Part shown: one piece after another, positions 4,292 through 62,297 of the stretch
Layout of the letters: every line of letters begins with the position of its first letter
Position numbering within the stretch: position 1 is the first letter of the stretch
Assembly: GCF_036250065.1 (NCBI RefSeq)
Contig: NZ_CP109199.1
Coordinates: forward strand, 434,001-498,000
DNA: 64,000 bases
Direction: 5' to 3'
Source: Micromonospora sp. NBC_01699
GTDB lineage: Bacteria; Actinomycetota; Actinomycetes; Mycobacteriales; Micromonosporaceae
Notes under the pieces: generated by a model
Databases searched by the model: none
Told to the model about the DNA's origin: nothing
What the model saw: the letters and a program-made list of their open reading frames with translations, nothing else
Position numbers and translations under genes: made by a program

Positions 4292-4347
4292 CACCCGCTC
4301 GCGCCCCCCGTACTCATCAGCTCGAACTGTTCACAGAAGGGTTTTCC

Positions 4348-39221: not shown

Positions 39222-40761
39222 CAATGCCGTTCAGTTAGGGCGTCTGCTGAGGTCAGTGTGGTGAGCTGACGTCGGTTGTGGAGGGCGGTACGGTGGCTGG
39301 CCGTGACGTCAGCGGTGGTAGAGACAGCGCAACGGCCGTGGGGCCGGTTGACCGACCATATCGGGCTGGGTGTGGTGTCGGCCCGTTTCGGGCGTGACCT
39401 GCTGGAGGAGGTCCTCAACCGCACCGAGCGGCGGGAGAAGCGGTCGAGGCGGCTGCCCGCGCATGTGATGATCCGCTACGTCATCGCGATGGGTTTGTTC
39501 TTCGCCGAGTCCTACGACGAGGTGATGCGCCGGTTGGTGGGTAACCTGCGCGCACTCGGTTCGTGGGACGACGACTGGCAGGTCCCGACCAAGTCGGCGA
39601 TCACCCAGGCCCGACAACGGCTCGGGCCAGAGCCGATGAAGGCGCTGTTCGAGCGGGCCGCGGTGCCTCTGGCGACCTCGGGCACCAAGGGCGCGTGGCT
39701 GGCCCGGCGCCGGTTGATGGCGATCGACGCGACCAGCTTCGACGTGGCCGACACCTCGGACAATGCCGAACGGTTCGGCCGGATGGGCTCCGGGCCGAAA
39801 GCGTCGGCGTATCCGAAACTGCACCTCGCCGCCATCGCCGAGTGCGGCAGCCACGCGATTGTCGGTGCCGTGCTGGGTAGCTGCCGCACCGGGGAGCGCA
39901 CCCTGGCCGCCGATCTGACCAGCACGGTCGGGCCGGGCATGCTGGTGATGGCCGACGCCGGCCTGTACTCCTACGACCTGTTCAACCGGTTCGCGGGCAC
40001 CGGCGCGGACCTGGCCTGGCGGATCGGCGCGTCGGTGTCGGTCGGGCACCTGAGCTGGCTTCCGGACGGCTCCTACCACGCGCTGATCTACACAGCCGGG
40101 CTGAGCGCCGCCAGCCGGGCCCGGCTGGCCGAACAGGCAAAAGCCGGCCACGATGTTCCCGCCGAGTTGGCTCGCCGGGTACGGGTGGTCGAGTACACCG
40201 TCCCGGACCGCAACCTCGATGGTGACCTGATCGTGGTGATCACCACGATCACCGACCCGCACGAGATCGGCGCCCTCACCCTGGCCGAGGCGTATCACCA
40301 ACGCTGGGAAGAGGAATCCGCGCTGGACGAGATCAAGACGGACCTACGCGGACGCGGTGAAGTCCTGCGCTCGAAGACCCCGGACCTGGTCGAACAACAG
40401 ATGTGGGGACTGCTACTGGCCCACTACGCCATCCGCGCCCTCCTGCTGGACGCCGCTGACCCGGCGGGCTACGACCCCGACCGCATGTCCTTCATCAAAG
40501 GCCTCCGGGTCACGCGCCGCCAGGTCACCGACCAGGCGGCCATCACCCCCTGAACACCTTTACACCGCCCTGACCGACGCGCTCGACGAGATTCGCCACC
40601 AGCCCAACCCACCCCGCCGCGACCGGACCTGCCCCCGCGTCATCAAACGCGCCCGACACAACTCCTACCGCGTCAAACGCCCCACCGACCGAACCACCCG
40701 CCACCCCAACCCGCCAACACCGCAACTGGCCTGCCCAAACATCCTTAACTGAACGGCATTG
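39222..40761 (+). mobile_element. IS4-family insertion sequence inserted in IS3 orfB
   Basis: 1540 bp with 19-bp terminal inverted repeats (left CAATGCCGTTCAGTTAGGG at 39222-39240, right 40743-40761, one mismatch). A 10-bp direct target duplication GGTCAAACGC lies at 39212-39221 and 40762-40771. Excision restores the host IS3 orfB exactly. Confidence 0.95.
39303..40752 (+). pseudogene. IS4-family transposase, probably frameshifted near its C-terminus
   Basis: From the GTG at 39303 the frame is open to a TGA at 40551 (416 aa). It has an IS4 N-terminal domain (GLGVVSARFGRDLLEEVL), a first catalytic Asp in LMAIDATSFDVAD and a second in VMADAGLYSYDL. The YREK signature YHQRWEEESALDEIK lies near residue 330. 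The expected basic C-terminal tail continues in the next frame (EHLYTALTDALDEIRHQ to 40752). The switch is at a run of five C (40546-40550): one extra C would explain it. The catalytic core is intact, so the truncated protein could still be active. Confidence 0.8.
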
Positions 40762-40762
40762 G

Positions 40763-41350
40763 GTCAAACGCCGTCGTGGCCTGACGGTGGCCGACCGGGC
40801 CGCCGGGCCGATCCCGGACCTCGTCGGCCGGGACTTCACCGCCGAGGCGCCCGGGGCGAAGATGGTCGGTGACATCACCCAGATCGACACCGGAGAAGGG
40901 CCGTTGTTCCTGGCTTCGGTCATCGATTGTTTCTCCAAGAGCGTGATCGGGTGGGCGGTCGATGACCGTTATCCGGCGTCGTTGGTGTGCGGGGCTCTGG
41001 ATATGGCCGCGCGGCGTTTCCCGTTGCCGACCGGAGCGATATTTCACTCCGACCGCGGTAGTCAATATACATCGCACGAGTTCGGTGTCGCGTTGAGTCG
41101 GCATAAGGTGCGGCAGTCGGTCGGGCGGACCGGTATCTGTTTCGATAATGCGATGGCCGAGTCGTTCTTCGGGAAGCTGAAGACGGAGTGGGTGCATCAC
41201 CGAACATTCGCCACTCGTGCCGAAGCGCGACGGGAGATCATCAGGTTCATCGAGGGCTTTTACAATCGGCGGCGTCTACATTCCGGTCTCGGGTACCGCC
41301 CGCCGTCGGAAATCCTCGAAGAATGGTTTGCTAATCGGCGGGCAGCTTGA
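40763..41350 (+). pseudogene. IS3 transposase orfB, 3' part (rve integrase core)
   Basis: 196 codons in frame from the insertion point. The DDE core is present: VGDITQIDTGEGPLFLASVID (first Asp), FHSDRGSQYTS (second Asp), and NAMAESFFGKLKTEW (Glu). It has no start of its own and is not expected to be made. Its sequence is otherwise intact, which again indicates recent disruption. Confidence 0.92.
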
Positions 41351-41608: not shown

Positions 41609-42901
41609 TTACGAAGGTGGCTGGCTCTTCAAAACGGTGTGAAGGGCGGCCCGTGCGGTGGCTTCCTGCTCGATCGCGTAGCCCCGGTTCAGGCAGCATT
41701 GCGCGAAGGCGCCGATTTGGTCCGGGCGTTGTGCGAGCTGCTCGAGGTGGGTACGGCTGTGGGTGTTGAATGTCCGGCCTTCGTCGTGCTGCACCGTGCC
41801 GACGTCCACGACGTGGATGGTGGTGCCCAGCGGCAGGTTGTCGTGGACGCGGGCGGTGATGCGGACGCCTCCGAGGTCGGCGTCCGCGCAGATGACGACT
41901 GCTGAGGTCTGCTGCGCGGCCTGGACGATCATCGACACGACGGCTGCGGGCGGCTGTCCGTGGCACCAGACGACCGGCAGGTCGGGCCGGGTGTCACAAA
42001 CCGTTTCGGCCGCCTGCCGGTTCTCCACGACCAGCAGGACGCCGGTGTGCCCGGAGACGGTCAGTCGCGGCAGCGCGTGGGGGCTCAGTCGGATGTCGTG
42101 CGGGCCGGGCATCGCCGACAGGTCGAGGACGGAGCCGGTGGTCGTGTGCAGCAGGATCGGGCCGCCGAGCCCGATGTACGGGTTGCGGGCCACGCCGAGC
42201 GCGATGAGTGTCTCGTGGTCGAAACCCATAGCGGCGAGCAGATGATGCACGTCGTCGCGGGCTTTCGTGTCGTTGGCGTGGCTCTGCACGAATGCGCGGA
42301 GGGAATCGTGGGTACGGCCCTCAGCGAGGTCGGCGGCGGCGCGCAGCGCCCACAACAGCCGGTCGGGGTGGTCGGTGACGCGTAGGGCCCGGCTGGCATC
42401 CGGCCAGTCATCGGCGATCGCCGATGCGATCTGCTCCGCCCTGGTTCGAAGGGTGCTGGTGTCGTCGCGTCGGCGGCTTCGGCGTGCTTGTTCTGCTGCC
42501 GCCAGGTCGGGGTGCGGGTACACCCGGCGTGGTGGCTGGGCCAGGGCGTTGCTGTTAAGGGTGTAGCCGATCGTCACACAGCCGGATGCGGCGAGTTCCA
42601 GCATGATGCGCAGCGCGTCAGCGCCGAACTTGTTGCTGACACCGGCCCAGCTGTGCTCGCTGCGAATGACCCAGGTCCAGTCGCTGTCGCTGAGTAGTCC
42701 GTCCGGTCGGCGTGGAGCCTGGCCAGGGTTTTCGGTGCGGAGGCGGGCGGATCGCGGTCTCGGCCGACCGCGGCTGTCCCGGGGGTAGTGCCCGCTGGGC
42801 GGCAGCGGCGCGTAGGCGACCAGGCCCGGGTAGTCACGGATCCAGCTGAGAGTGATTTCGGGGTCCGGTTCCTCTGGGACGGTGCCGTCGGTGTCGGTCA
42901 T
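41609..42901 (-). CDS. Wadjet-like JetD: Toprim-fold nuclease (DUF2399-like)
   Basis: 430 aa, last gene of the five-gene operon. The C-terminal third has the Toprim layout of JetD proteins: LLVVENRQAAETV with the catalytic Glu (E293), a WCHGQPPAAVV turn (314-320), and ICADADLGGVRI with metal-binding D340 and D342. The VENR...GQPPAA arrangement is closest to DUF2399 members, the JetD type of actinobacterial Wadjet II. The N-terminal ~250 residues are helical and winged-helix-like, for DNA binding (cf. GADALRIMLELAASGCVTI). In Wadjet, JetD cuts circular plasmid DNA after the SMC complex extrudes it. ATG 42901 overlaps the SMC stop by ATGA. Confidence 0.82.
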   Translation of the reverse strand: MTDTDGTVPEEPDPEITLSWIRDYPGLVAYAPLPPSGHYPRDSRGRPRPRSARLRTENPGQAPRRPDGLLSDSDWTWVIRSEHSWAGVSNKFGADALRIMLELAASGCVTIGYTLNSNALAQPPRRVYPHPDLAAAEQARRSRRRDDTSTLRTRAEQIASAIADDWPDASRALRVTDHPDRLLWALRAAADLAEGRTHDSLRAFVQSHANDTKARDDVHHLLAAMGFDHETLIALGVARNPYIGLGGPILLHTTTGSVLDLSAMPGPHDIRLSPHALPRLTVSGHTGVLLVVENRQAAETVCDTRPDLPVVWCHGQPPAAVVSMIVQAAQQTSAVVICADADLGGVRITARVHDNLPLGTTIHVVDVGTVQHDEGRTFNTHSRTHLEQLAQRPDQIGAFAQCCLNRGYAIEQEATARAALHTVLKSQPPS

Positions 42902-45900
42902 GTTTGCGGCTCCGGCCGGAACGAGGTCATCCAGTCGGAGAGCAGCTGCACCCGGGTGGTGTCGGCTTCGCTGCCGATGACGACCGGCGCCTGGTTGTAC
43001 GGCATGGTGTCGGACGGGCGTCTCAGCTTGATGTAGAGGCTGGACGCGCCGATCGCGTACCGCTCCATGTCATCCTGCAGGGCGCCGACGACGCTGATCG
43101 CACGGTCCCGGCCGATGTTCTCGAAGAGGGCGACGGCGTCACGGCGGTGTGCCGCACCCAGGTTGCGGCCGAGTTCGTCGAGGACCAGCAACAGCGGCCG
43201 GTCCTGGGCGCCGGCGAGTGCCGCCGCGCAGACGAGCTTCACCGCTTTGTCGTCCATCTGTGCCGTGTTGCCGCGCAGCCGGTACGACGACGGCGGTTTT
43301 CCCTCACCGCGCCGCCACCGTGGGGTGATCGTCCACTGCCACGGTTTCTCGGGGTCGGCGGGGGCTTCCGGTTCAGGGAAATCGAGGTTGCCGCCGTAGC
43401 CGCCGTAGGTCTGGTCGAGCCGGTCAAACTCGTCGGACACCTGACGCAGTTTCGCTTTGATGGCCTTGGCGGTGGTCGACCGCAGCGCCTCCGATGTTCG
43501 CCGGGCCTCGTCGAGTGCGGCCTTCGCGCCGGTCAGCGTGATGGTCTTGGCTTGCCGCTCCTGCTGGATCTGCGAGGCATTCTCCCGGTCGACGCGCTCA
43601 TGATCAGTCAGGAAGTTGCCGACGATCCTCAACACGTCGGGAATGAGCCGTACGTACGCTCCGGTGCGCCGGTCGGCGCGCTGCTCGTCGACGACCCGGA
43701 GTTCCTCCGGCCGGTTCTGCTCCGGGTCACCGGGCGGGAAACACACGGCGCGAACCTCATTGGCCAGCCGCGCGCACAGCTCGTCCCACTCCGCCGACGG
43801 CCGCAGCGCCTCACTCTCGTCGAGCGTAAGCAGGTGCTGTTCGGCGGACTCCACCGTTCCGGTCCACTGCGCGTGCAGGCGAGGCAAGTCAAGATCTGTA
43901 CGCAGCTGCAGCAGGGCTCGCCACTGGCTGCGGTTATCTTCGAGTTCCTTCTTTAGCCTGGTAAGGGTGCTGTTTGCCGCCTCGATCTGCTGAGCCCGGG
44001 CGGCTTTCTCGCCGAGGGCGGCCTCGTAGCCGACCTTGGCTTGCTGCAACGGCCCGCCGAGTTTGTTCAGCTCCAGTTCGGTTGCGGAGTTGCGATTGCG
44101 GAGCTTCGTCACCTTGTCGCGAACCACTGTGGCCTCGGCCTCGGCCTTCGCGCCGCGTAGGTGCGTGTCGGCGCGGCCCTTGATGCGTTTGGCCTCGCGG
44201 ATCCCCTCGTCGGCCTCGTCGTCCTCGCTGGCGGCTCCTTTCACCTGATCTTGAGCGCCTCGGATCCGGCCGGCACGGCCGGTCAGTGATTCCGGTAACC
44301 CGGCGATCCCGTGCACGCCAGCTACGGGATCGATGTGCTCGTCGGCTCCGGCTCGCTCGGCTAACGCCGCGAGGAACCGGCTCACCGGTAGGTCGGGGTC
44401 CGCAGCGGCGGGCAGGCCCGGCTCGGCCACATGATCGATGGGGTCTGCTTCGACCAGTAGGCTGCCTGGCAGTGCGGTCAGTAGTCGGACGGCATCCCGA
44501 GCTTGGTGGTGAGCGACGGCGACCGCGTGCCGATAGGGCAGCAGCCGCGCCTCCCACGTAGGCCGCTGCTGTTCGGTCAAGGAGATCGTGTCGACCAGCG
44601 GCGCTGCGGTGATGTCGTTCGCCCGTAGCAGCCGGACCTGGGCGACCGCGACATCCTCGCCCTTCTCTGCGGCGGACAGCGCCGCCTTGGCGACCCCCAG
44701 CGCGTGTTCGGTACGACCTTTGGCCCGTTCCGCCGCCTGGATCATCTTCTCGGCCTCGGTGATCTCATCCTCGGCCTGTTCAACGGTGCGCCCGTCCGCT
44801 ACGGCCGCGTCGGCTTTAAGGCGCCGCAGCTGTCCACCAAGGGTTTCGATCGAGCCGACGTTCTTGTTCTGCTCGTCCTGCAGTGCGGTTTCGGCAGCCT
44901 TGAGATCCTCGTACGCCTTGATCCGGGTGCGGCAGCTCTCATCGAATGCCTTGTCGTCGGATAGCCGATCCACCTCACCGCCGGCCGTCTCGATCTTCGC
45001 ATCCAGTTCTTCACGCCGACGTTCCTTCGCCTCGACATCCGCGGCGATCCGTTCGGCTTCGTGCACGCCGTCGACCAGGTACCGGGCACAGCGACTTCGC
45101 CAACCGTCACGTGCCTCGGCTAGCAACGTCCGGGACTGCTCCCGCGAGGCGATGCCATCCTCGACGACCTTCATCCGGCCGTCCCACAACTCGTACTCCG
45201 ACTCGGCCCGCTCGGCTTTCCCAGCCTGTTCGTACTCCTCGGCCCTGGACCGCTGCTCCTGTTCGATCTCGGCGGTCAAACCGGTCAGCGCTCCGATGGC
45301 CTCGAAGATCCGCTCCGGGGTCAGCTCGTTGAGCGGCTGGGCGAGCAGGTTCGCGGTCGGGCTGGCCCGTACCGAGGTCGACAGGAACGACACGCATCGA
45401 ACTGTCGAGCCGTACAGGGTGCGAGCGAGCCGGTTGGCGCGGATATCGGTACGGCCGTTGCTGCGCGGCAAGGCGTCCCACAACCCGTCGGCGCCGCCGG
45501 CTCGTTCGTCCTCCGTGTCACCGAACGGCACGTGTAGCCGATGGGCCCACCGCAGCTCAACGTGCGGGCTCTGCCGGTTGATCCGTAGCCACACCGTCAA
45601 CGCCGACGCGTCCAGTTCTTCCACCGTCTCGGCCTGCGACGGCACGAAAACGCCGATCAGGTAGCCGCGGTCGGCGTTGGCGTGCATCGCCTCCTGGCCG
45701 GCGAGTTCGGCGGTGAATAGCAACTCGGCAGCGGCCTGCGCCCCCGACTGCAACCGCCATTGCTCGTCGGCGTGCAGCAGGCTCAGCCCGGCGATGAACG
45801 ACGACTTGCCGGCCCCGTTGGAGTCAGAGGGCCCCTGACCCGCCATCGTGATCAGCCCACGGGCGGTGATCGGCACCGGATGAGTCGACAGCCGTGAGAT

Positions 45901-45984
45901 GTTGACCATCTGGATGCCGGCGAGGACGCGCGCTCCGACGATGTCCTCGACGACGCCGTCCGACGGCATGGCTACCGACGTCAA
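42898..45984 (-). CDS. Wadjet-like JetC: SMC-type ATPase
   Basis: 1028 aa from a TTG at 45984, chosen because GGGAGGA lies 6 bp before it and it overlaps the previous stop (TTGA); the nearest ATG is 15 bp further with no site of its own. Walker A GPSDSNGAGKSSF lies at ~50-62. Two long coiled-coil stretches (about 300-480 and 640-800, rich in E/K/A) flank a hinge-like middle. The C-terminal head has Walker B LLLVLDELGRN at ~931. The ATPase would extrude DNA loops together with the kleisin and winged-helix subunits. It is shorter than TIGR02680-type SMC proteins (~1350 aa), so it does not match classical type II. Confidence 0.85.
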   Translation of the reverse strand: MTSVAMPSDGVVEDIVGARVLAGIQMVNISRLSTHPVPITARGLITMAGQGPSDSNGAGKSSFIAGLSLLHADEQWRLQSGAQAAAELLFTAELAGQEAMHANADRGYLIGVFVPSQAETVEELDASALTVWLRINRQSPHVELRWAHRLHVPFGDTEDERAGGADGLWDALPRSNGRTDIRANRLARTLYGSTVRCVSFLSTSVRASPTANLLAQPLNELTPERIFEAIGALTGLTAEIEQEQRSRAEEYEQAGKAERAESEYELWDGRMKVVEDGIASREQSRTLLAEARDGWRSRCARYLVDGVHEAERIAADVEAKERRREELDAKIETAGGEVDRLSDDKAFDESCRTRIKAYEDLKAAETALQDEQNKNVGSIETLGGQLRRLKADAAVADGRTVEQAEDEITEAEKMIQAAERAKGRTEHALGVAKAALSAAEKGEDVAVAQVRLLRANDITAAPLVDTISLTEQQRPTWEARLLPYRHAVAVAHHQARDAVRLLTALPGSLLVEADPIDHVAEPGLPAAADPDLPVSRFLAALAERAGADEHIDPVAGVHGIAGLPESLTGRAGRIRGAQDQVKGAASEDDEADEGIREAKRIKGRADTHLRGAKAEAEATVVRDKVTKLRNRNSATELELNKLGGPLQQAKVGYEAALGEKAARAQQIEAANSTLTRLKKELEDNRSQWRALLQLRTDLDLPRLHAQWTGTVESAEQHLLTLDESEALRPSAEWDELCARLANEVRAVCFPPGDPEQNRPEELRVVDEQRADRRTGAYVRLIPDVLRIVGNFLTDHERVDRENASQIQQERQAKTITLTGAKAALDEARRTSEALRSTTAKAIKAKLRQVSDEFDRLDQTYGGYGGNLDFPEPEAPADPEKPWQWTITPRWRRGEGKPPSSYRLRGNTAQMDDKAVKLVCAAALAGAQDRPLLLVLDELGRNLGAAHRRDAVALFENIGRDRAISVVGALQDDMERYAIGASSLYIKLRRPSDTMPYNQAPVVIGSEADTTRVQLLSDWMTSFRPEPQT

Positions 45985-46634
45985 CGCTGTCCTCCCATGC
46001 GGTTGTGCCGGCGTTCCCGGATCGCCGCGGCCAGCGGATGGTCCGGTGCCGCGGCGAGAATCAACTGGTCCTGCAACTGCTCGCGGGCGGCCGGCGTCAG
46101 CCGCGACAGCTGCGGGCCCGGTACGTAGCCGCTGTCGTGGTCGCCGCCCCGGACTGTTCGGAGCAGCCCGCACGCGGTCAACCGGCCCAGGGCCGCTCTG
46201 ACCTCTCCAATCGGCACTTTGCTGTCACGAGTGACGTCCTGCAACGTGGTCGGGTACGGGCTGTCCCAGGAGTCCGCGGCGATTCGCTCCTCGCTGCGCG
46301 GGACCGCCACCGAGTGGACCAGCACCAGGACCAGAACGGCGCGGTCGGCCAACGACAGCGGCTGCCACCCGGTCTCGGCGAGCTCGGTCCGTACGGCGTC
46401 GTCGAATCCGGACGTGAAGTGCAGCGCGTCGACCGACACCAGTGTCCGGCCCGTTCGGCGAAGTAGCTCCTCCAGCCGTTCACGGCTCGTCGCGTCCCGC
46501 AGCGCGGGCAGGAACTGCCGGTGAACTGGGCCACTGCCGTGCTCTAGCAGCGCGTACGCGGCTTCGACCAGCTCTCGCTGCCGGTCGGGCAACGTCCCGA
46601 GCACCTCTTCGAAGATGGGATTCGGGCGGTTCAC
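45981..46634 (-). CDS. Wadjet-like JetB: winged-helix (KITE/MukE-like) subunit
   Basis: 217 aa from a GTG overlapping the upstream stop (GTGA). Helix-rich N-terminus, then a winged-helix region (IGEVRAALGRLTACGLLRTVRG) at about 145-170 and a conserved hydrophobic block SLADRAVLVLVLVHSVAVP. Position directly before the SMC gene, size and fold pattern match the JetB/MksE/MukE accessory subunit that holds kleisin to the SMC heads. No domain family can be named with certainty from sequence alone. Long upstream in-frame extensions overlap the neighbour and are rejected. Confidence 0.7.
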   Translation of the reverse strand: MNRPNPIFEEVLGTLPDRQRELVEAAYALLEHGSGPVHRQFLPALRDATSRERLEELLRRTGRTLVSVDALHFTSGFDDAVRTELAETGWQPLSLADRAVLVLVLVHSVAVPRSEERIAADSWDSPYPTTLQDVTRDSKVPIGEVRAALGRLTACGLLRTVRGGDHDSGYVPGPQLSRLTPAAREQLQDQLILAAAPDHPLAAAIRERRHNRMGGQR

Positions 46635-47170
46635 CACACCTCCGGCCCGCTGTCGGTGGTGTTGGGGATCAACCGCCACAGCTCCCTGAGAGTGCTCAGT
46701 TCCAACGATCCGAAGGAGGCGATTCGTGGCCCGATCCGCACCGTGTCCGTACCTTCCAGAAGGACCCAACCGGATGATGCGAGGCGCCTGAGCCCTGCGG
46801 ACAACAGTTGCTGGCGGCTCACCTTGTTGCGGCCTGGCACCAGCCGCTGCAACACCTGACCGACGTGGCCGGTCGAAGCCGGCAGCCCGGGCCACGGATC
46901 CGTCGCGGGGTCGGGCCAGCAGCATCGCAGAGTCGCGGCCAGCACTCGCAGGGTCCCCTTGCTGTCCATTATTGAGGAGCCAGGGATTCCGTACTCGCTC
47001 AGAACAGTCGGTCCCGCGCTGTCGGGCAGGTTCGGGATCAGCCACACTGCCTTGGCGTCGGCTTCCACCAGACGGCGCAGCCCGGCCGGTGTCGGCCCAC
47101 CGGCGGAGACCTGCTGTGGTCCGCCGGACCGAATCCTGGCCCACCACAGGGCCACGTCGCGCTCGTTCAC
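46631..47170 (-). CDS. Additional small winged-helix protein of the SMC operon
   Basis: 179 aa from a GTG overlapping the kleisin stop (GTGA); its own stop overlaps the next gene in the same way. The C-terminal half (VSRQQLLSAGLRRLASSGWVLLEG, TVRIGPRIASFGSLELSTLRELWRLIP) looks like a winged helix followed by a beta-wing and helix. Known Wadjet operons have four genes, and this one has no counterpart. It could be a second KITE-type subunit making a heterodimer with the next gene product, as Nse1/Nse3 do in Smc5/6, or a DNA-sensing subunit. No family is recognised. Confidence 0.72.
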   Translation of the reverse strand: MNERDVALWWARIRSGGPQQVSAGGPTPAGLRRLVEADAKAVWLIPNLPDSAGPTVLSEYGIPGSSIMDSKGTLRVLAATLRCCWPDPATDPWPGLPASTGHVGQVLQRLVPGRNKVSRQQLLSAGLRRLASSGWVLLEGTDTVRIGPRIASFGSLELSTLRELWRLIPNTTDSGPEVW

Positions 47171-48384
47171 GCTGTCTCCCGCTGGTCCCGGCGGAACCAG
47201 CCGTCGGAGACCCACGTCCGCGTGGATGTCACATCGACGCGCCATCCATTACCCCAGGTCACTATGTACGGCAGCTCCGGACGCAGATGAATCGCGGTCA
47301 GCTCCGACAACACCCGCCGACTGGTCGGCCAGTCACCGGCATCGGCGAGAAGCTGCGCCACCGTGACCACGTCCCGCCCGGTGAGCAGCTCCTCCGCGGG
47401 CCGGGCCAGCAGCGTCGCTTCCGAGTCGATGTCGACTTCCGTCGGCGGAGGCTCGTCATCGACACGCGGTCGCGGCGGCGGCACTCGGCCGGTTTCGGAC
47501 TGCAGTCCTTCCTCCACCGCGTCCAGCAGATCGTCGGCGGTGAAGAACGGCTCTGGCGCGTCGAACAGCAGACCGTTCAGAGCCTGAGCCAGGCCTTCCG
47601 TGCTGCTGTCACGCGCGAACGTGCGCCATCGCTCGGTCGGCAGCAACCCCAGCGCGCGAGTCTTGCCTGCGTGCGCCAGCAGCCGCCCGGCTGCGGTGTT
47701 CAACGCGTCGCGATATGCCGCCAGCGCCATCCTCAACTGCGTGCACTCCGGCAGCAGCTGCGGATGCCGGTCCGCCGCCGCGTTGTGATACACCCGCGCC
47801 TTGTCGAGTAGGTCGCTGTTACCCAGCAGCGGCTGCGCCTGCGTCTGCAAGGACTCGACCGTCGCCGACTTCGCCAACTGCATGATCGGGTTCGCCAGCA
47901 ACCGGAAGACCGTCGTCATCTCCAGCAGCTGCTCGCGCACCACTTCCGGGGTGGTGTCATCTTCGTCCAAGGCCAGCCGGGCCATCGACAACATCCGGTG
48001 CAGCTCCGCCTGACCCCCGGTCTGCGACAGGCGGCGCAGGAAGAGCAACATCACGTACGGCGCGAACGTCGCCTGGTAGAACATCTCGTGCGGCCGCTCG
48101 TTGACCCGGGTCACCGCTCGATACGAACGCAGCACCTCAAATCGGCGCCGGACCACATCGGCAGGCACGCTCGGACACGCCAGCACGACCTGCTCGACCG
48201 TCATCCCAGACGGGCCCCCGTCAGCGAACGCCTGCAAGATCGACTCATCGGCCCCGACCGAGTTTGCGTCGTCCACCATCGCGTTGGCGTTTCGCGCTAG
48301 CACCGCGAAGACCTGCCGGTAGATCCCGAGAACAGCCGATTCGGCAGCGTAGTCGTCGAACGTCAAGGCCGCTGCATCGCTCAT
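47167..48384 (-). CDS. Wadjet-like JetA: kleisin-like subunit
   Basis: 405 aa, first gene of the operon, start ATG 48384. An N-terminal winged helix (GMTVEQVVLACPSVPADVVRR) is followed by long helices (about 105-240) like the middle of MukF/MksF. An acidic, proline-rich linker (PPPRPRVDDEPPPTEVDIDSE) lies at about 305-325. The C-terminal ~80 residues form a small domain with LPYIVTWGNGWRVDVTS. A kleisin bridges the two SMC heads and carries the KITE subunits. The assignment rests on order, length and fold pattern; no diagnostic motif exists. Translation of all five genes is coupled by 4-base overlaps. Confidence 0.72.
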   Translation of the reverse strand: MSDAAALTFDDYAAESAVLGIYRQVFAVLARNANAMVDDANSVGADESILQAFADGGPSGMTVEQVVLACPSVPADVVRRRFEVLRSYRAVTRVNERPHEMFYQATFAPYVMLLFLRRLSQTGGQAELHRMLSMARLALDEDDTTPEVVREQLLEMTTVFRLLANPIMQLAKSATVESLQTQAQPLLGNSDLLDKARVYHNAAADRHPQLLPECTQLRMALAAYRDALNTAAGRLLAHAGKTRALGLLPTERWRTFARDSSTEGLAQALNGLLFDAPEPFFTADDLLDAVEEGLQSETGRVPPPRPRVDDEPPPTEVDIDSEATLLARPAEELLTGRDVVTVAQLLADAGDWPTSRRVLSELTAIHLRPELPYIVTWGNGWRVDVTSTRTWVSDGWFRRDQRETA

Positions 48385-48772: not shown

Positions 48773-50257
48773 TCAGGAGTCGGCTCCCGGGACAACCAGC
48801 CATTCGCGCGCGCTCCTGGCCGTCGCACGGAGCTGCGGATGCTTCTGCACGATCTCGCGCTGTCGCTCGGGGGGCAACCCGAGCTCGTGCAGCACGTTGA
48901 GGATCACGACGGCTGTGGTCACCTCCACAACGGCGATCAACTCCTCCATGGAGTGATCCGGGGTGCTACCCTCGTGCGCCAGGTCGTTCCGTGCCCGAGT
49001 GGTCCTCCTCGCCCATCGGTCCACGTCCGGCATGAGCAGCCCGACGGCCACATCATCAGGACGCGCAGCGAGCGCGTACAGCCGGTCCCGCAGGGTCGGG
49101 TCGTTGCGGATAGCTCGCTTGAATCTCTCTCGGTGGTCCTCGGGCACGTGCGTCAGCATGGCTTCGCGCATCGGCTTGAACTCATCTGCGGGCATCGGGC
49201 GCTCATCGATGCCGAGACGGCGATGCAGCACCTCGGCTGCGCCCACCGCCGTCAGAAGATTGTTCTCGACATAGCGAGCCGGTGCGTAGCGGAGGCCTAA
49301 GATCATGTTGATCGCCGCCTGTAGCCGCCCGTGTGCCTCGCACCAGCGTGGAACGACCTCCTCGAACGGGAACGATGCGCACGTGAAGAACACGCGGTGG
49401 TGGTCGGCGGCCTTGGCATCGTGCTTACCAAGCACAGAGGGCGAGTAGAGAACATCAGCATCTCGGCGCAGCGAAGGGCGGTCACCACGCGGCACAGAGT
49501 CCGCTTCTGCCACCTCCAGCCGCAACCAGATCACGCCGGCGGCACGGTGTGTCGCGAGAGCGATCAAATCTTGCACCAGGCTGGCCGTGCCCAGCGCACC
49601 GCTCAAGGAGAACGGGTCCGTAGGGACGATTCGCACGAACGCGGTGTCGCGCACGCGGCCGACGGTCCCGCCCCTCCGCTGATCGAAGAACGGCAGCGTG
49701 TGCCGGTGCGAGAGGCGGAACTCAGTTCCATCAACCACGATCGACTGGGTCTCCGACGGCTTCACGGAGATGCTTCCGCTTCCGTCCGGTTTGCCGTCGG
49801 GGGCTCCGAGAAAGCCCTCGAACACCGACGAGGCTGCCCAGAGCCCGAGGTCCTCGACCGACACCTCGGCCGCGGAGAACGCTGCGTCGTCCTCGCCGCT
49901 GACGTGCGCCCCGATGAGCGCCGTCGTCGCCATCACGGTCTGCTTGTCCGGACTTTTCACTCGCGCACCAATGGTCCGCTTGCTGCTATTCGGGACGCAG
50001 GCAAGAAGAGTGATCTCGCGCTGCTCGGCCGCACCGTGGATCACGTCCCACACCCGGTGCCCTTCGTGGACCGCAACGACACCAGGAGAAGGGCTCGACA
50101 TGATGCGGTCCTCGAACGCGCCGATCAACGAGAGCACCAGGCCGCCCTCCGGCTCGTACCGGAGCACACCGGGGATCTGCTCGTCAGGGTCGTCCGGCAA
50201 CCACCAGAGACCTGCCCACTCGCCGGACTTGTCGAGGTTCAGAGGATCGTTGGCCAT
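48773..50257 (-). CDS. apeA: ApeA-like anti-phage HEPN ribonuclease
   Basis: 494 aa. The N-terminal ApeA domain (GEWAGLWWLPDDPDEQIPG, typical of ApeA_NTD1) is a predicted sensor. The C-terminal Apea-like HEPN domain contains the catalytic RNxxxH motif RNDLAH at 423-428, preceded by RWARRTTRA. ApeA is a single-gene defence protein thought to cleave RNA upon infection and halt phage growth. The gene stands alone, convergent with the IS110 remnant. It is a little shorter than the ~585-aa founding member, mostly in the linker. All HEPN catalytic residues are present, so it is probably active. Confidence 0.87.
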   Translation of the reverse strand: MANDPLNLDKSGEWAGLWWLPDDPDEQIPGVLRYEPEGGLVLSLIGAFEDRIMSSPSPGVVAVHEGHRVWDVIHGAAEQREITLLACVPNSSKRTIGARVKSPDKQTVMATTALIGAHVSGEDDAAFSAAEVSVEDLGLWAASSVFEGFLGAPDGKPDGSGSISVKPSETQSIVVDGTEFRLSHRHTLPFFDQRRGGTVGRVRDTAFVRIVPTDPFSLSGALGTASLVQDLIALATHRAAGVIWLRLEVAEADSVPRGDRPSLRRDADVLYSPSVLGKHDAKAADHHRVFFTCASFPFEEVVPRWCEAHGRLQAAINMILGLRYAPARYVENNLLTAVGAAEVLHRRLGIDERPMPADEFKPMREAMLTHVPEDHRERFKRAIRNDPTLRDRLYALAARPDDVAVGLLMPDVDRWARRTTRARNDLAHEGSTPDHSMEELIAVVEVTTAVVILNVLHELGLPPERQREIVQKHPQLRATARSAREWLVVPGADS

Positions 50258-51303: not shown

Positions 51304-52608
51304 ATGCTTGAGCCGCTAAAAGAGCCAGTCAATGACCGCACTTCGGTGGAGTTGTTCGCTGGTGGTGGCGGTCTGGCGATGGCCGTGCATCGAGCTGGGT
51401 TCCGGCCCCTGCTGGTCAACGAGCTTGTGAGGCACGCCTGCGACACCCTCAAGGCCAACGCTGCGGTTTCGAGGGGCGACGAGGAGTGGATCCCTGACCC
51501 GGGCGAGCGGTGGCCCCTGATCGAGGGGGATGTGAGCCGGGTCCGGTTCGAGTATCTGTGGGGCCGCGTGGACTTGCTCGCCGGGGGACCACCCTGTCAG
51601 CCGTTCAGCCTCGGTGGGGTGGCGAAGGGCGACGAGGACAAACGCAACATGTTCCCGGAGATGTTCCGCGCCATCCGCAAGATTCAACCCGAGGCCGTCA
51701 TCTGCGAGAACGTCCGCGGCTTGCTGCGCCCCTCCTTCAGACCGTACTTCGAGTACATCGAGCGTGAGTTGCAGCTGCCGTTCGTGGAACGTGACGACGA
51801 CACTTCGTGGCGTGAGCATGACGAGGTGTTACAGGGGCGACTGGCCGAAGAGCCGTCGGATCCGAAGCAGCGATACGAGGTAGTGACCACGACAGTGAAC
51901 GCCGCCGACTACGGTGTTCCACAGATTCGCAACAGGATCATCATCGTGGCGTTCAGGGCGGACCGCGGGGTTGACATCGAACGCTTCAAGCAGGCCGTGA
52001 GCCCTCGCTACTCAGAGACGGCGTTGGTCCGATCGATGTTGGACGGCTCGTATTGGGACCGACACCCGGACGTGCCCGACCACGTGCGCGAGCGTGTCAT
52101 GTCCCGGCTGCCGGATACTCCTCCAAAGGACGACGGCAAGCTTCCATGGCGCACTCTGCGGGACGCGCTTAAGGGCCTTGACGGACAGCCCCCGCTACCA
52201 GCGGTGCCTTGGGACAGACTCGACCGGCGGGAGTACCGACTCGGTGGATTCACCGGCCACATCGGCTGGCCTGACGCGCGAATCTACGCCGGCCACACCC
52301 CGAACGAGCTCGACCGGCCGGCGAAGACAGTGAAGGCGGGCGTGCACGGCGTACCTGGCGGGGAGTCGGTGATGTTGACCGACGAACTGCTACCCGAGCC
52401 ACTAGAGGGCTCGCCCTACGCCTACAAGCACCGGTATATGACCGTACGTGAGACAGCACGGGTTATGACCTTCCCCGACGACTGGAAGCTGGCCGGTCCT
52501 CGGAGCGAGCAAATGCGCCAACTCGGCAACGCTGTGCCCGTCATGCTTGGTGAGTTCTTCGCTCGGGCCATTGCCACCGCCCTCGACGAGACTACGAGCC
52601 AGCGGTGA
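51304..52608 (+). CDS. DNA cytosine-C5 methyltransferase (Eco29kI-type)
   Basis: 434 aa with all main C5-MTase motifs. Motif I is VELFAGGGGLAMAVHRAGF. Motif IV is GGPPCQPFSLGG with the catalytic Cys at about 101. Motif VI is the ENV of ICENVRGLL. Motif VIII is QIRNRIIIVA, and motif X is RQLGNAVPV. It methylates cytosine in DNA and would protect against the two GIY-YIG restriction enzymes nearby. Eco29kI-family partners usually recognise CCGCGG; that is a family-based guess here. The stop overlaps the Vsr start (GTGA), so repair and methylation are coupled. Confidence 0.95.
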   Translation: MLEPLKEPVNDRTSVELFAGGGGLAMAVHRAGFRPLLVNELVRHACDTLKANAAVSRGDEEWIPDPGERWPLIEGDVSRVRFEYLWGRVDLLAGGPPCQPFSLGGVAKGDEDKRNMFPEMFRAIRKIQPEAVICENVRGLLRPSFRPYFEYIERELQLPFVERDDDTSWREHDEVLQGRLAEEPSDPKQRYEVVTTTVNAADYGVPQIRNRIIIVAFRADRGVDIERFKQAVSPRYSETALVRSMLDGSYWDRHPDVPDHVRERVMSRLPDTPPKDDGKLPWRTLRDALKGLDGQPPLPAVPWDRLDRREYRLGGFTGHIGWPDARIYAGHTPNELDRPAKTVKAGVHGVPGGESVMLTDELLPEPLEGSPYAYKHRYMTVRETARVMTFPDDWKLAGPRSEQMRQLGNAVPVMLGEFFARAIATALDETTSQR

Positions 52609-53405
52609 CTTCGGCCATCGCCCCGTCCGACAATCGTTGGGCGGACAAGACCCCCGATCCGAGAGCGTGGAAGGGCCGGCAGGGCCGTAGCAGGAGAGCG
52701 GCGTCGCTTGAGCAGGACCGAGCCGCTGGCGGGGCCGACCGGCGGTTGGTCGATCTCGGCGACGGACGGCGGGCCCGCGCGTCCGTCGAACTCAAACTGC
52801 TGCCCCGGACTCGTCGCATCCGGGCCTACCTACGCTGGTCCGATAAGGGCCGCTCACCCGCTCGCTACCTCGGTGAGGTCGAACACGCTACCCGGGCCGA
52901 GAATCTGGCCCAGGGGTGGCGCTTGGCGTGGGACCGAGGTCTTCTCGTCGCGCCGGACGTCACCACGAGCTCTTGGGCGAAGACCCCCGCCGTACGGGCG
53001 GTGATGCGCGCCAACAAGGCCCGCGATACCGGCCCCGAACTGCGCCTGCGCTCGCTTCTGCATAAGAGAGGTCTGCGGTACCGAGTCAACGCCAAACCCC
53101 TACCGTCCCTGCGCCGCACCGCCGACGTGGTGTTCCCGGCCGCCCGCATCGCGATCTTCGTTGATGGCTGCTACTGGCATGGATGTCCCGAGCACTATCG
53201 TCCGGCCCACGCCAACGGCGGCTTCTGGCGGGAGAAGATCGATGGAAACCGCGCTCGTGATCGGGAGACCGACCAGTTACTCGCCGACGCGGACTGGACC
53301 GTGATCCGAATCTGGGAGCACGAGGATCCCACGGAGGCCGCCAACCGCGTTGAGGAGGTGGTCCGAGGCGAGGGTCATGTTCGGCCATTGCGTCCAGGGC
53401 GCTAG
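52605..53405 (+). CDS. vsr: Very short patch repair endonuclease (Vsr) with long N-terminal extension
   Basis: 266 aa from the overlapping GTG. The Vsr domain occupies about 130-250: KARDTGPELRLRSLL, TADVVFPAARIAIFVDGCYWHGC with the catalytic Asp and zinc-site Cys/His, and WTVIRIWEHE. It nicks at T:G mismatches that arise from deamination of 5-methylcytosine. The first ~125 residues (LKLLPRTRRIRAYLRWSDKGRSPARYLGEVEHATRA) form an extra basic domain missing in the ~150-aa E. coli enzyme; it may add DNA affinity. Follows its methyltransferase, as in many R-M operons. A hairpin follows. Confidence 0.92.
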   Translation: MTSAIAPSDNRWADKTPDPRAWKGRQGRSRRAASLEQDRAAGGADRRLVDLGDGRRARASVELKLLPRTRRIRAYLRWSDKGRSPARYLGEVEHATRAENLAQGWRLAWDRGLLVAPDVTTSSWAKTPAVRAVMRANKARDTGPELRLRSLLHKRGLRYRVNAKPLPSLRRTADVVFPAARIAIFVDGCYWHGCPEHYRPAHANGGFWREKIDGNRARDRETDQLLADADWTVIRIWEHEDPTEAANRVEEVVRGEGHVRPLRPGR

Positions 53406-54684: not shown

Positions 54685-55551
54685 CTACGCGTCGAGTTCG
54701 AAGAGCGGATCGGCCTCAGTCGTGCCCTCGTCGGCCGCGTCCGCGTCCACCCTGCCTGCGGCGAATTGGCGCGGGCCCGGGGCGTACAGGACCTGACCAT
54801 CCGACTCACGCCGCCACCAGCCGAGCGCGCTGTCGTACCGCCGACGCTCTTGATACATGATGAGGTAGCCGGGCAACGCGGTCAGCTGCCATCCAACGGG
54901 CAAGGCGGCGATAACCTGGTGCGCGAGGTTCCTCGCGTTCATGGGCTGGTCGGAAGGGGTCAACGAGGTGTCTCGGTAGGTCTTCCTGGCCCCAGCGCTG
55001 CTGTCGAATCGCAGAAGGTAGGGCAATTGGCCCTTGGCCGAGTCCAAGATCGCCGTGAGTGGCTGGGAGCCTGGGTGCAGTCGACAGCGGTAGTCAAGGT
55101 CGATGGGATAGGTTGCGTCGAAATGTACCGCCTTGACCACGCTTGTATCCCGATTGCGCCCCGGGTCCTTGTTGCCGAAGCCATTAGTGTTCCAGGGAAT
55201 ACTGTCGTGTTCCCGATACTTCTTGATAAGCAGCTTCTCGGGCGCTGCGGCGTCGAGGTCCTCGTCCACGTAGACGCACACGAAGCCAACAGCTGCCGGA
55301 TCGAGCCCGGAACGACCGGAGAGCTTGCGGAGGTGTTGGGTCAGCCGGTCCTGCAGCGAACTCGCGGCCTTGCCGACGTAGACACGTTGACCGTTGAAGA
55401 ACAGCGTGTACACGCCGGGACGACCCAGAACCCTGGACAGGTGCGTCGTCGTCAAGGGTGCGGGCTTAAGTGGCCGCAGGGTGGTCTCCAACTGGTCGGC
55501 CAGAGCTCGCGTGATGCTGAGGCGAAACTCGGCAGTCCAATGGTCAGTCAC
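54685..55551 (-). CDS. Eco29kI-family GIY-YIG restriction endonuclease, copy 1
   Basis: 288 aa from the GTG at 55551, placed by GGAGG. The GIY-YIG core has PGVYTLFFNGQRVYVGKA (both tyrosine motifs), the LQDRLTQHLRKL segment with the Arg and His typical of Eco29kI, the Glu in AAPEKLLIKKYRE and Asn in PWNTNGFGNKDPG. These match the family's catalytic set. The C-terminal ~110 residues form the specificity part. It cuts unmethylated DNA, and the C5 methyltransferase upstream is the likely partner. It is the first gene of the minus-strand pair with the HNH gene. An identical fold is encoded again 600 bp to the right. Confidence 0.92.
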   Translation of the reverse strand: MTDHWTAEFRLSITRALADQLETTLRPLKPAPLTTTHLSRVLGRPGVYTLFFNGQRVYVGKAASSLQDRLTQHLRKLSGRSGLDPAAVGFVCVYVDEDLDAAAPEKLLIKKYREHDSIPWNTNGFGNKDPGRNRDTSVVKAVHFDATYPIDLDYRCRLHPGSQPLTAILDSAKGQLPYLLRFDSSAGARKTYRDTSLTPSDQPMNARNLAHQVIAALPVGWQLTALPGYLIMYQERRRYDSALGWWRRESDGQVLYAPGPRQFAAGRVDADAADEGTTEADPLFELDA

Positions 55552-56152
55552 CGCTGCCTCCACAGACTCGCCAAGCCGGGTCCCCGTAGTCTGACAGGTT
55601 AGTCTTCGAGATCCAACTACAACCCAGGCGGACCAGGCGCGCTCGACAAATCGTCGTTCATCTGCCCGCCCAGTGGCCCCGGAGCACGGCATGGCAACAA
55701 CTGTCTACAGGGACCCACTCACCCGCACTAGCTTGATCCTGCCCAGCCCATGCGCCCCGATCTCTATCGAGGCCAGGATCGATCCCGTCATCCACCAACC
55801 GGTTTACGGTTGCATCGGTGCACAATGGTCCGAGTCCATCAAATATTATAAATCGGGCGAATCCAGCCTAAGGGATGCTTCTTGGGGGACGGGGTTGAAC
55901 TGTCACCCCGTCGCGGCTGGCGGTGCTACTTAGGCGACTCCCGGTTCGACACGATTTCACGCTGGCGGCGGAGTCCACCAGTAGCAGTGCAGCGTCTGCT
56001 GCCCTCACCGCAGTCCAAGGGCCTATCGCCCCGGCTCCTTGTGGCGCATAATCATGCTCGAGGTGATCAAGTCAGGGCTTCGACCCGATGGACCGCAGAT
56101 GGGGGAAGACGGTGCTGGAGTCTGGCAGTAGCGATGACGTGAGGGTTTCGTG
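55552..56152. other. 601-bp region between the two divergent GIY-YIG genes
   Basis: The upstream regions of both restriction genes lie here. An A/T-rich patch (AATATTATAAA, about 55841) could hold a promoter for copy 2. I see no controller (C) protein gene and no credible ORF, although a 79-codon open frame exists around 55691-55930. Timing of restriction must therefore use another mechanism. Confidence 0.5.
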
Positions 56153-57010
56153 ATGGTTCCTCGGCAACGCGCCCGCGGAGAGCTCCTGTCGTATGCGGAT
56201 GTCTTCGCTATCGACCTGAACGCCGCTCTATTGGAGCAACTGCCGCAGGCATTGGATTCCCTGGAGCCGGTCTCATTGACGGAGGAAAATCTCTCCGCGC
56301 TTGGACCGGAGCATGGCGTTTACCAGCTGTTCCACGCTGGCGAGTCAGTCTATATAGGAAAGTCCCAGGATACTTTGCGTGTCCGGTTGAATCAGCACCG
56401 GCGACGCTGCATGGGGCGGCTTGGTATCGATGTGAGCGACATGTCGTTCCGGTGTTTATACGTTGATAAATTCGTTGACGCAGCGTCCCCGGAGTCGGTG
56501 CTTATCAAGCGGTACAGAGAGGCGGGTCTCGCACCCTGGAACGTTGCCGAAGGCTTTGCCCCGAAGGATGTCGGGCGCGGCCGTGCGTCTGGTAAGCCTG
56601 GACAATGGTTTCTTGATCGACCCGTGGATCACCTGGTCACGGTTAGAGTGGCGGGGGCAGGTGGACCGATGCCTGTATTGGGGGCACTGGCAGCCCTTAA
56701 AGCTGCCGTGCCATTCGATCTCTTCCGGTACGCATCGGACCGCAGTGGCAGTGAGAGTGACAAGGCTAGTGTGGTTGACTACGTGGGACGAGAGGTCACG
56801 CTGGAGCGTGGCAAAGCTCCGCTAATGTCTCACCTGCGACGGGTGGTCGCCGCGCTGCCGGTTGGTTGGCAAGCCACAGTGGAGCCGCCAGGTGTGCAGA
56901 TCTATCGGGAAGAGGTGAACTACCCCTACGCGATGGATGGTTGGCGCCATGAGTCACATGGATTGGCGCGCCTTGAACGCGGCCAGTCACTCCGTATGCC
57001 TACGATCTGA
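56153..57010 (+). CDS. Eco29kI-family GIY-YIG restriction endonuclease, copy 2
   Basis: 285 aa from ATG 56153 (GAGGG 7 bp upstream; a GTG one codon earlier is possible). The core HGVYQLFHAGESVYIGKS, the LRVRLNQHRRRC segment with Arg/His, the Glu of ASPESVLIKRYRE and Asn of APWNVAEGF match copy 1 residue for residue at the catalytic sites. Overall identity is moderate, so this is a diverged paralogue, not a recent duplication. Codon use contains more A/T than its neighbours (TTATATAGG, GATAAA), suggesting separate acquisition. No second methyltransferase accompanies it. Confidence 0.9.
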   Translation: MVPRQRARGELLSYADVFAIDLNAALLEQLPQALDSLEPVSLTEENLSALGPEHGVYQLFHAGESVYIGKSQDTLRVRLNQHRRRCMGRLGIDVSDMSFRCLYVDKFVDAASPESVLIKRYREAGLAPWNVAEGFAPKDVGRGRASGKPGQWFLDRPVDHLVTVRVAGAGGPMPVLGALAALKAAVPFDLFRYASDRSGSESDKASVVDYVGREVTLERGKAPLMSHLRRVVAALPVGWQATVEPPGVQIYREEVNYPYAMDGWRHESHGLARLERGQSLRMPTI

Positions 57011-61970: not shown

Positions 61971-62297
61971 GTTTTGCTCTCCGCCGAGTCTTGATCAAGG
62001 CCCTGACCTGTGGGCTAGCAAATTAGAAGTGAGTTCGGGGGCAAATGTGGGCCCCTCGTGGGAGCCGTTGTCGGAACTCAATCGCTCAAGATCCACATCT
62101 CATCGCAAGTCGTCCATATTGCCTGCTCATTGGGTATGTAGTTGAAGACTGCTGACTCCGGGCGGCGCACCTTTTGAGCTGTATTGCGTTGAACGTCTTG
62201 AGCGGCTCGCTCGCTGGTTGGACTGCACCAGGTGGACTGCGGGCGGTATCGGTCCTGGTCCGTAGCGATCGCGCTGCTGTCAGCATGGAGGTCATCG
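61971..62297. other. Left end of integrase-bearing element
   Basis: 327 bp between the tRNA half and the integrase start. It contains A/T-richer DNA and short repeats (GGGGGCAAATGTGGGCCCC) that could be integrase arm sites. No gene was found. Confidence 0.45.

Follow-up and report, generated by a model that had tools for sequence, protein, structure and literature searches.

A conserved SMC operon of Actinomycetota with two KITE-like genes and an exchangeable fifth gene

Does an operon that has the motor and the nuclease of a Wadjet system, but one small gene more than Wadjet, belong to Wadjet or to a different kind of SMC machine? The question is raised by five genes in a 64,000-nucleotide stretch of the Micromonospora sp. 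NBC_01699 genome (contig NZ_CP109199.1, positions 434,001 to 498,000; hereafter the window), which encode a kleisin-like protein (JA), two small winged-helix proteins (W1 and W2), a structural maintenance of chromosomes (SMC) ATPase, and a Toprim nuclease (TOP). An earlier note, made from the sequence alone, had described them as a five-gene Wadjet relative with an additional winged-helix gene. In known Wadjet systems, one SMC sensor is paired with one nuclease. Types I to III are distinguished, with JetA, JetB, and JetC as the kleisin, KITE, and SMC subunits, according to PMC10586767. We find that the operon is a real, conserved system, in which the motor and the nuclease are related to Wadjet, the partner proteins are distinct, and the output is exchangeable. 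It is probably an SMC complex that resembles Wadjet but belongs to a lineage of its own, and it would sense foreign DNA and take up plug-in effectors through a docking domain.

The compact layout first read in the letters was borne out by the open reading frame (ORF) listing and by the junctions: all five genes lie on the minus strand, and each of the four junctions is a 4-base overlap (GTGA at 47167-47170, GTGA at 46631-46634, TTGA at 45981-45984, and ATGA at 42898-42901). If the overlap is used, the SMC gene starts with TTG; an alternative ATG lies 15 bases downstream. No NCBIfam model scored above its cut-off for any of the five proteins, and TOP was the only one above a Pfam cut-off. JA, W1, and W2 stayed below every Pfam and NCBIfam cut-off and matched nothing in PADLOC at E<=10, so such loci are easily missed. 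A scan of bacterial genome contigs with an alignment of the SMC protein yielded 65 loci from the best 80 of 82 matching stretches (given here by L numbers), all of them in Actinomycetota and with SMC relatives of up to 91% identity. JA, W1, W2, and SMC follow each other in that order on one strand in 61 of the 65 loci; the gene order is thus kept well beyond the window, and chance or mis-called ORFs are ruled out by this conservation together with the identity of the SMC relatives. Of the 59 loci counted, 46 have a 4-base overlap between the JA and W1 genes, and 56 have an overlap of 4 or 8 bases between W1 and W2. L040 is without JA, W1, and W2, while L086, L088, and L090 are fragments, and about 1.8-2.1 kb separates W2 from the SMC part found in L061, L069, and L081. 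In L025/L071, JA, W1, and W2 seemed to be fused, but this is probably an artefact of a frameshift and was discounted.

The fifth gene of this SMC core is exchangeable. It encodes TOP in 15 of the 65 loci (13 complete; L088 and L090 fragmentary) and, in 8 others, the N-terminal domain of TOP fused to a Hanks-type protein kinase domain; the remaining 42 have neither. The five-gene set described before is real and conserved, but it is only one of three forms (Toprim, kinase with a sixth gene, or neither), and with a kinase in 8 loci and neither effector in 42 the core is not reserved for the cutting of plasmids. The exchange can be followed in a close pair, L077 (kinase) and L039 (Toprim), which share 84% identity in SMC, 88% in JA, and 74% in effector residues 1-165, whereas their C-termini are unrelated; in blastp, the match between L039 TOP and L077 covers residues 1-187 at 69% and then ends. 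Two kinase forms, L077 and L065, share 47% in SMC, 43% in JA, and 55% in the N-domain, with 90% in the kinase domain and 88% in the sixth gene. The effector gene shares 4 bases with the end of SMC in 13/13 Toprim and 7/7 kinase loci, a count made with starts picked by homology and without L069, L071, L088, and L090. On a 75-row SMC tree, built by a quick method with SH-aLRT support, 11 effector-state changes were needed, with at least three changes forced for the kinase, and L043 and L077 (kinase) share a starred group with L039 and L044 (Toprim). The number of changes is uncertain because of long branches, such as that of L023 joining the L063 kinase group, and because 14 of the 72 inner forks are open.

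The same sixth gene adjoins the kinase gene in all 8 kinase loci and in the 4 kinase loci of a divergent, L026-type subfamily; in L099 and L135, the kinase and sixth gene pair is divergent from the core. The Pfam-scanned kinase forms are L018 (on the same contig as L077; Pkinase 2.5e-27), L065, and L064. Of 12 kinase-form proteins, 11 have HRD (HRN in L074) and all 12 have DWG. In L065 (12069-14519) and the seven other kinase loci, the kinase effector is followed by a sixth gene of 337-388 aa, whose product has the conserved motifs KDWGGE(R/K)SDLY, KGPG, GDQI, and DG.DT. The sixth protein had no significant Pfam, PADLOC, or PDB match; at its C-terminal motif it looks restriction-endonuclease-like, by eye only. 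A search with the sixth gene matched 6 of 298 genomes, 3 of them strongly, and all 3 strong matches adjoin such a core. In L069 and L098, an inserted gene interrupts the SMC gene and the kinase and sixth genes remain open; W2 of L098 is also split across two frames. At the level of sequence, the common N-terminal domain is established for the main subfamily only, as the L026-type subfamily gave no Toprim-to-kinase blastp match at 1e-3 among the matches listed.

Relatives that keep the plan of the operon reach further. One divergent subfamily comprises L026, L099, L100, L135, L136, and L137, and a second one L104 and L151. L104, which is related to the genome of the window no more closely than by phylum, has the complete five-gene set in order; the fifth gene of L151 scored only 37 bits and has no D-x-D pattern. 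JA was matched in 12 of 151 related genomes and the survey of the phylum gave 3 of 396, both counts including the own genome; 28 of 350 genomes were positive in the family survey (one with only a JA fragment, L153) and 23 of 296 in the class survey. As the surveys overlap (L018 and L077, for example, are one contig), their counts are not additive. Among 72,556 plasmid records, SMC was found in one, a replicon of 11.85 Mb classed as a plasmid, and JA was found in none of 50,697 phage records. The Kribbella contigs repeatedly end about 1-7 kb past the SMC gene (among L052-L062, L066, L072, L073, L075, and L078-L084), which may point to a repeat or to the end of a replicon at that place. In L024, an Exo_endo_phos nuclease gene (3961-4731) lies upstream of JA, with a 4-base overlap, and the contig breaks inside SMC.

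How close is the operon to Wadjet? It was compared through PADLOC, Pfam, and NCBIfam models and by hhalign with alignments of type I and type II JetABCD from the own genome and from others, in which the subunits beside the family match were named by position; type III was covered via PADLOC models only. TOP is JetD-like. DUF2399 (28.4 bits, cut-off 23.4) and JetD_C (23.7 bits, cut-off 22) both scored above their Pfam cut-offs, in line with the DUF2399-like nuclease proposed before, and the best PADLOC JetD model matched at E 4.9e-11. With type II JetD, hhalign gave P=91.7 and E=7.8e-7 over the Toprim domain only, the N-domain lying outside the match. The catalytic residues E293, D340, and D342, already picked out in the earlier note, are invariant in 11/11 aligned Toprim forms, an alignment without L151 (no D-x-D pattern) and L088 (a fragment); TOP thus has the Toprim nuclease and the catalytic E and D residues of a Wadjet JetD.

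The SMC protein is probably related to Wadjet through its head. The Walker A and B motifs read in the window protein are conserved among its relatives: the Walker A pattern occurs in 75/75 SMC rows and the stricter Walker B pattern DE[LF]G.N in 69/75, and D936 and E937 are invariant in an 11-row alignment, as is the D-E pair in another, 9-row alignment. The SMC profile matched type I JetC (hhalign P=70.2, E=4e-5), while the match to type II JetC (P=36.5) fell within the coiled coil. PADLOC JetC1 reached an E of 7.6 only, the window SMC was absent among TIGR02680 matches at E<=0.001, and LmuB matched weakly (E 0.0035, strongest over residues 245-433). When the SMC, JA, and effector profiles were run against PDB sequences, no convincing relative from an SMC complex emerged; the top matches of the SMC profile were FhuC (E 0.015) and a stretch of SMC3 (E 0.038).

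The three partner proteins set the operon apart. AlphaFold2 models of W1 (pLDDT 86.4, pTM 0.80) and W2 (pLDDT 87.1, pTM 0.74), built from alignments of 38 and 34 sequences, were compared by Foldseek with 350,542 PDB chains, in a result table that names entries rather than molecules. For W1, the seven top-ranked chains come from MukE-MukF (3rpu) and Wadjet JetABC (8as8_C, 8dk1_E/F), and we take these chains, judging from their length, to be MukE and JetB; MAGE (Nse3-type) and Nse1-Nse3 complex chains rank below them. The first domain of W1 appears degenerate in the secondary structure of the model. W2 has two winged-helix-like units, with ScpB (6juv_A, E 1.1e-4) as its best match and a ScpAB complex (3w6j) as the second, and MukE-MukF chains lower in the list among other winged-helix proteins. 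Both models have a tandem winged-helix, KITE-like fold. Two KITE-like proteins, as first proposed, are accordingly supported, and the concern that the 179-aa protein might be unrelated to the complex was not borne out, its nearest folds being SMC-complex chains. From their joint presence in 61 loci, W1 and W2 would form one heterodimer. JA, on gene order alone, would be the kleisin. It had no PDB sequence match to MukF; of all hhalign pairings among the non-effector operon proteins, JA with W2 scored best (E 0.0014-0.002, P 14-17%), which we read as a winged-helix stretch in common.

W1 might alternatively regulate the operon as an accessory transcription factor and not belong to the complex, as its winged-helix fold and small gene might suggest; we consider this highly improbable, since its first seven Foldseek places hold SMC-complex chains and no regulators, and since each of the 61 loci has W1 placed between JA and W2, with frequent overlaps on both sides. 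A divergent Wadjet subtype with a duplicated JetB (KITE) gene, working as JetABCD does and with the kinase exchange as a side branch, is a better-founded alternative. The SMC and Toprim profiles match JetC and JetD, the JetD models match TOP, and the nuclease comes last in the same order. However, the nearest folds of W1 and W2 differ (MukE/JetB complexes versus ScpB), the two proteins have no mutual hhalign match (E 0.05-0.08), and both genes are present in all 61 loci with JA, nuclease-free loci included. Neither W1 nor W2 matched JetB by PADLOC model or by type I/II profile, and where Wadjet has one JetB the operon has two KITE-like genes. JA likewise does not resemble the JetA kleisin of types I, II, or III: no PADLOC JetA model matched at E<=10, and hhalign with type II JetA gave E 0.039 (P <2%). 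We therefore regard a duplicated-JetB Wadjet as unlikely. As only SMC and Toprim match Wadjet profiles, a known Wadjet subtype is rejected, in the case of type III on PADLOC models only, and no described five-gene subtype turned up in the searches made. The proposed kinship with Wadjet is seen, by sequence, for the SMC head and the Toprim domain and not for JA, W1, and W2.

The other alternative is that the core is a chromosome-maintenance SMC complex of the MksBEF kind that recruits a nuclease or a kinase only occasionally, in which case the window operon may serve chromosome topology rather than defence. It draws on the 42 loci with neither effector, each with at least 1,154 bases available past the SMC stop (L086, a fragment, and L071, frameshifted, are included). 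JA occurs in 14 of 22 genomes of one family, including 12/12 of genus g377, where it matches a Jiangella protein at 100% (2 of the 12 matches with an in-frame TGA), and no TOP relative was found in any of the 22 with a query that recovered its two positive controls in the search described below. In genus g56, 4/4 genomes have JA, and all four core genes are present in those loci. Ten four-gene genomes contained no TOP relative save for a weak Toprim match (E 0.006) in one, in a search that found both positive controls (G000 and G017) and left the kinase form aside. By Pfam scan only, several genes beside the four-gene cores belong to metabolism or transport, and the four-gene form looks like a vertically kept chromosomal complex. 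Nevertheless, the window copy lies in a defence island with insertion sequence (IS) elements and an integrase, the system is patchy in its own family, the nuclease keeps all its catalytic residues, and some four-gene forms may have other effectors. Chromosome maintenance as the main role of the window operon is, in our judgment, quite unlikely.

Several neighbouring genes were considered as such other effectors. In 8 of the 42 loci, another gene on the same strand starts within 60 bases of the SMC stop. Four Jiangella loci have an alpha/beta-hydrolase-type gene there (in L047, the one scanned of the four, Abhydrolase_1 9.4e-28), which may be a further effector rather than a sign of an effector-free form, or an ordinary neighbour. 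In L045, a CoA-binding gene and SMC have 4 bases in common, and other genes start within 60 bases of the SMC stop in L031, L049, and L067. A family of M20 peptidase genes follows the four-gene core in L019, L020, L021, and L022, that is, in 4/4 loci of genus g56, at 4-12 bases past SMC in two of them; three were scanned and the fourth is a 117-aa piece. MFS, SDR, and glycosidase genes are also found nearby. We take all of these as probably ordinary neighbours because they were not seen to be common to several genera beside SMC.

Several results weigh against a Wadjet-like defence complex with plug-in effectors. NTAQ or NTAE occupies the place of SGGQ/SGGE of type I JetC in the hhalign alignment; this non-canonical ABC signature, NTA[QE], is found in 70/75 SMC rows (exceptions L042, L067, L068, L104, and L151), and [LFY]SGG after residue 700 in none of the 75. 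The seven chains nearest to W1 have weak E-values (3.4e-3 to 3.5e-2) and low TM-scores (0.36-0.50), and the best match of W2 has a TM-score of only 0.33 in a list that also holds winged-helix regulators; because these values are modest, we claim for both proteins a KITE-like fold, as the models support it, and not close kinship. The likeness of JA to type I JetA (E 0.035, P 1.5%) is not significant. With neither effector in most loci, defence cannot be assumed for every core, and in Jiangella the hydrolase-type gene overlaps SMC by the same 4 bases as the effectors do. Finally, 11 of 19 neighbour proteins picked from Toprim and kinase loci had no PADLOC match at 1e-5.

An ordinary type II Wadjet is also present in the own genome (L166, G000:C1:4237706-4241722; TIGR02680 SMC 1271.6 bits), with subunits of 532, 407, 1390, and 425 aa as called by a crude gene caller and with JetA, B, and D named by position. 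Measured against this set, the subunits of the window operon are indeed shorter than those of type II Wadjet, as had been supposed. Wadjet in general and the window operon both have an SMC ATPase, one or more winged-helix partners, and a Toprim nuclease in the last place; the window operon differs in its two KITE-like genes, and its relatives in an effector that is exchanged or not found. Similar to MukBEF and MksBEF, some relatives have no nuclease or kinase, one of them with JA throughout a genus, and the best fold match of W1 is MukE-MukF. However, MukBEF and MksBEF combine a kleisin, a single KITE, and an SMC with no nuclease, whereas the window has a nuclease and two unlike KITE-like genes, JA matches neither MukF nor, at a significant level, JetA, and effectors plug in elsewhere. 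The eukaryotic Smc5/6 complex with Nse1/Nse3 also has two different KITE-like proteins, here encoded within one operon; it has two SMC genes, while the operon has one (a homodimer would be expected), and no RING domain was seen. This is a resemblance of plan, and descent is not implied.

Lamassu (LmuABC) likewise pairs an SMC-like ATPase sensor with exchangeable effector domains. The window operon differs from it by its KITE-like and kleisin-like genes; the LmuB match is weak, and neither LmuA nor LmuC matched any of the other four operon proteins. Among kinase genes of defence, the kinase domain of L065 matches PD-T4-6 (1.5e-29) and Stk2 (1.5e-23) in PADLOC, but in the SMC operons the kinase forms one protein with the proposed docking domain, and a sixth gene comes after it. 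We found no two-KITE or kinase-bearing SMC defence operon in the literature covered, which takes in neither bioRxiv nor most subscription journals, and passages of PMC10586767, PMC10482375, PMC10853773, and PMC12839542 describe none.

The surroundings of the operon are those of a defence island (Table 1), in which an HNH gene and a Z1-domain gene are also found. At several other Toprim or kinase loci, the neighbours include GajA and type I restriction-modification-like genes (L028), PDC-S68 and LmuB/mad3-like genes (L039), an OLD/GajA-like gene (L074), and a HEC-05-like gene (L027). In L033, L034, and L039, the same upstream genes (about 440, 421, and 1000 aa, at about 0-6.2 kb) adjoin the SMC operon, a set that occurs in Micromonospora and Amycolatopsis; in L039, the sole one scanned, they are MkoA/MkoC-like and LmuB/mad3-like.

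Table 1 Coordinates of the operon, its motifs and domains, and neighbouring genes (positions in the window unless a locus is named)
Feature	Position	Strand	Evidence or remark
JA, kleisin-like (JetA-position) protein, 405 aa	47167..48384	-	ORF listing
W1, KITE-like winged-helix protein (MukE/JetB-like), 179 aa	46631..47170	-	ORF, AlphaFold2 and Foldseek
W2, KITE-like tandem winged-helix protein (ScpB/MukE-like), 217 aa	45981..46634	-	ORF, AlphaFold2 and Foldseek
SMC ATPase, 1028 aa	42898..45984	-	Walker A/B; hhalign to type I JetC
TOP, JetD-like Toprim nuclease, 430 aa	41609..42901	-	Pfam DUF2399 and JetD_C; PADLOC JetD
SMC Walker A, residues 49-62 (GQGPSDSNGAGKSS)	45799..45840	-	Walker A pattern in the SMC rows
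SMC Walker B, residues 931-939 (LLLVLDELG)	43168..43194	-	Motif read in sequence
SMC ABC signature position, residues 906-908 (NTA, then Q)	43261..43269	-	hhalign alignment
TOP residues 1-165, N-terminal domain common to kinase forms (proposed docking domain)	42407..42901	-	blastp/hhalign
TOP residues 285-418, Toprim catalytic domain (E293, D340, D342)	41648..42049	-	hhalign; invariant residues
DUF6884/DUF7669 protein	37268-38605		Matches candidate defence model PDC-M57A (4.7e-29)
IS4-type and rve transposase genes	39276-41350		
ApeA-type HEPN gene, directly upstream of the operon	48773-50257		ApeA_NTD1 1e-54, HEPN_Apea 2.8e-21
C5 methylase and Vsr genes	51304-53405		
Two neighbouring GIY-YIG/Eco29kI-like genes	54685-55692, 56150-57010	opposite strands	Near C5 methylase/Vsr
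Phage-type integrase	62232-63728		
Jiangella hydrolase-type gene	L046 12000-12938, L047 12018-12956, L070 10633-11580, L076 12021-12971		4-base overlap with SMC stop

How might such a machine work? In the Wadjet-like complex of separate lineage that we favour, the SMC dimer would be closed by JA as the kleisin, and JA would bind an asymmetric KITE pair made of one W1 and one W2. The SMC motor would translocate along DNA or extrude it and, when that DNA is foreign (in all probability a small circle or phage DNA), could either stall or complete the extrusion. Docked on the complex through its N-terminal domain, the fifth protein would be switched on by that state. In the window operon, the Toprim domain would then cut DNA, as in Wadjet, while in the kinase forms a phosphorylation signal, perhaps passed through the sixth protein as partner or target, would stop the invader or the cell. 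The four-gene cores perhaps serve chromosome work or carry effectors not yet recognised. More broadly, we see an even chance that an SMC lineage with an asymmetric KITE pair acts as a common DNA-topology sensor, into which a nuclease, a kinase with its sixth protein, and perhaps hydrolases plug, the first two by means of a common docking domain, and that the machine with neither nuclease nor kinase has become fixed as a chromosomal one in some genera.

From a biological perspective, a nuclease, a kinase, or neither on the same sensor amounts to a set of natural domain swaps, which bear on how an SMC motor discriminates between foreign and own DNA and relays the signal. The close pair of L039 and L077 makes the question of output directly testable. 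If this reading holds, the kinase forms would be, so far as our searches show, the first SMC machines to signal foreign DNA by phosphorylation. A prokaryotic complex with two KITE proteins would, if confirmed as such, be a simple system in which to study the Nse1/Nse3 plan of Smc5/6, and the genus-wide forms without nuclease or kinase would link an immune SMC machine to a chromosomal one.

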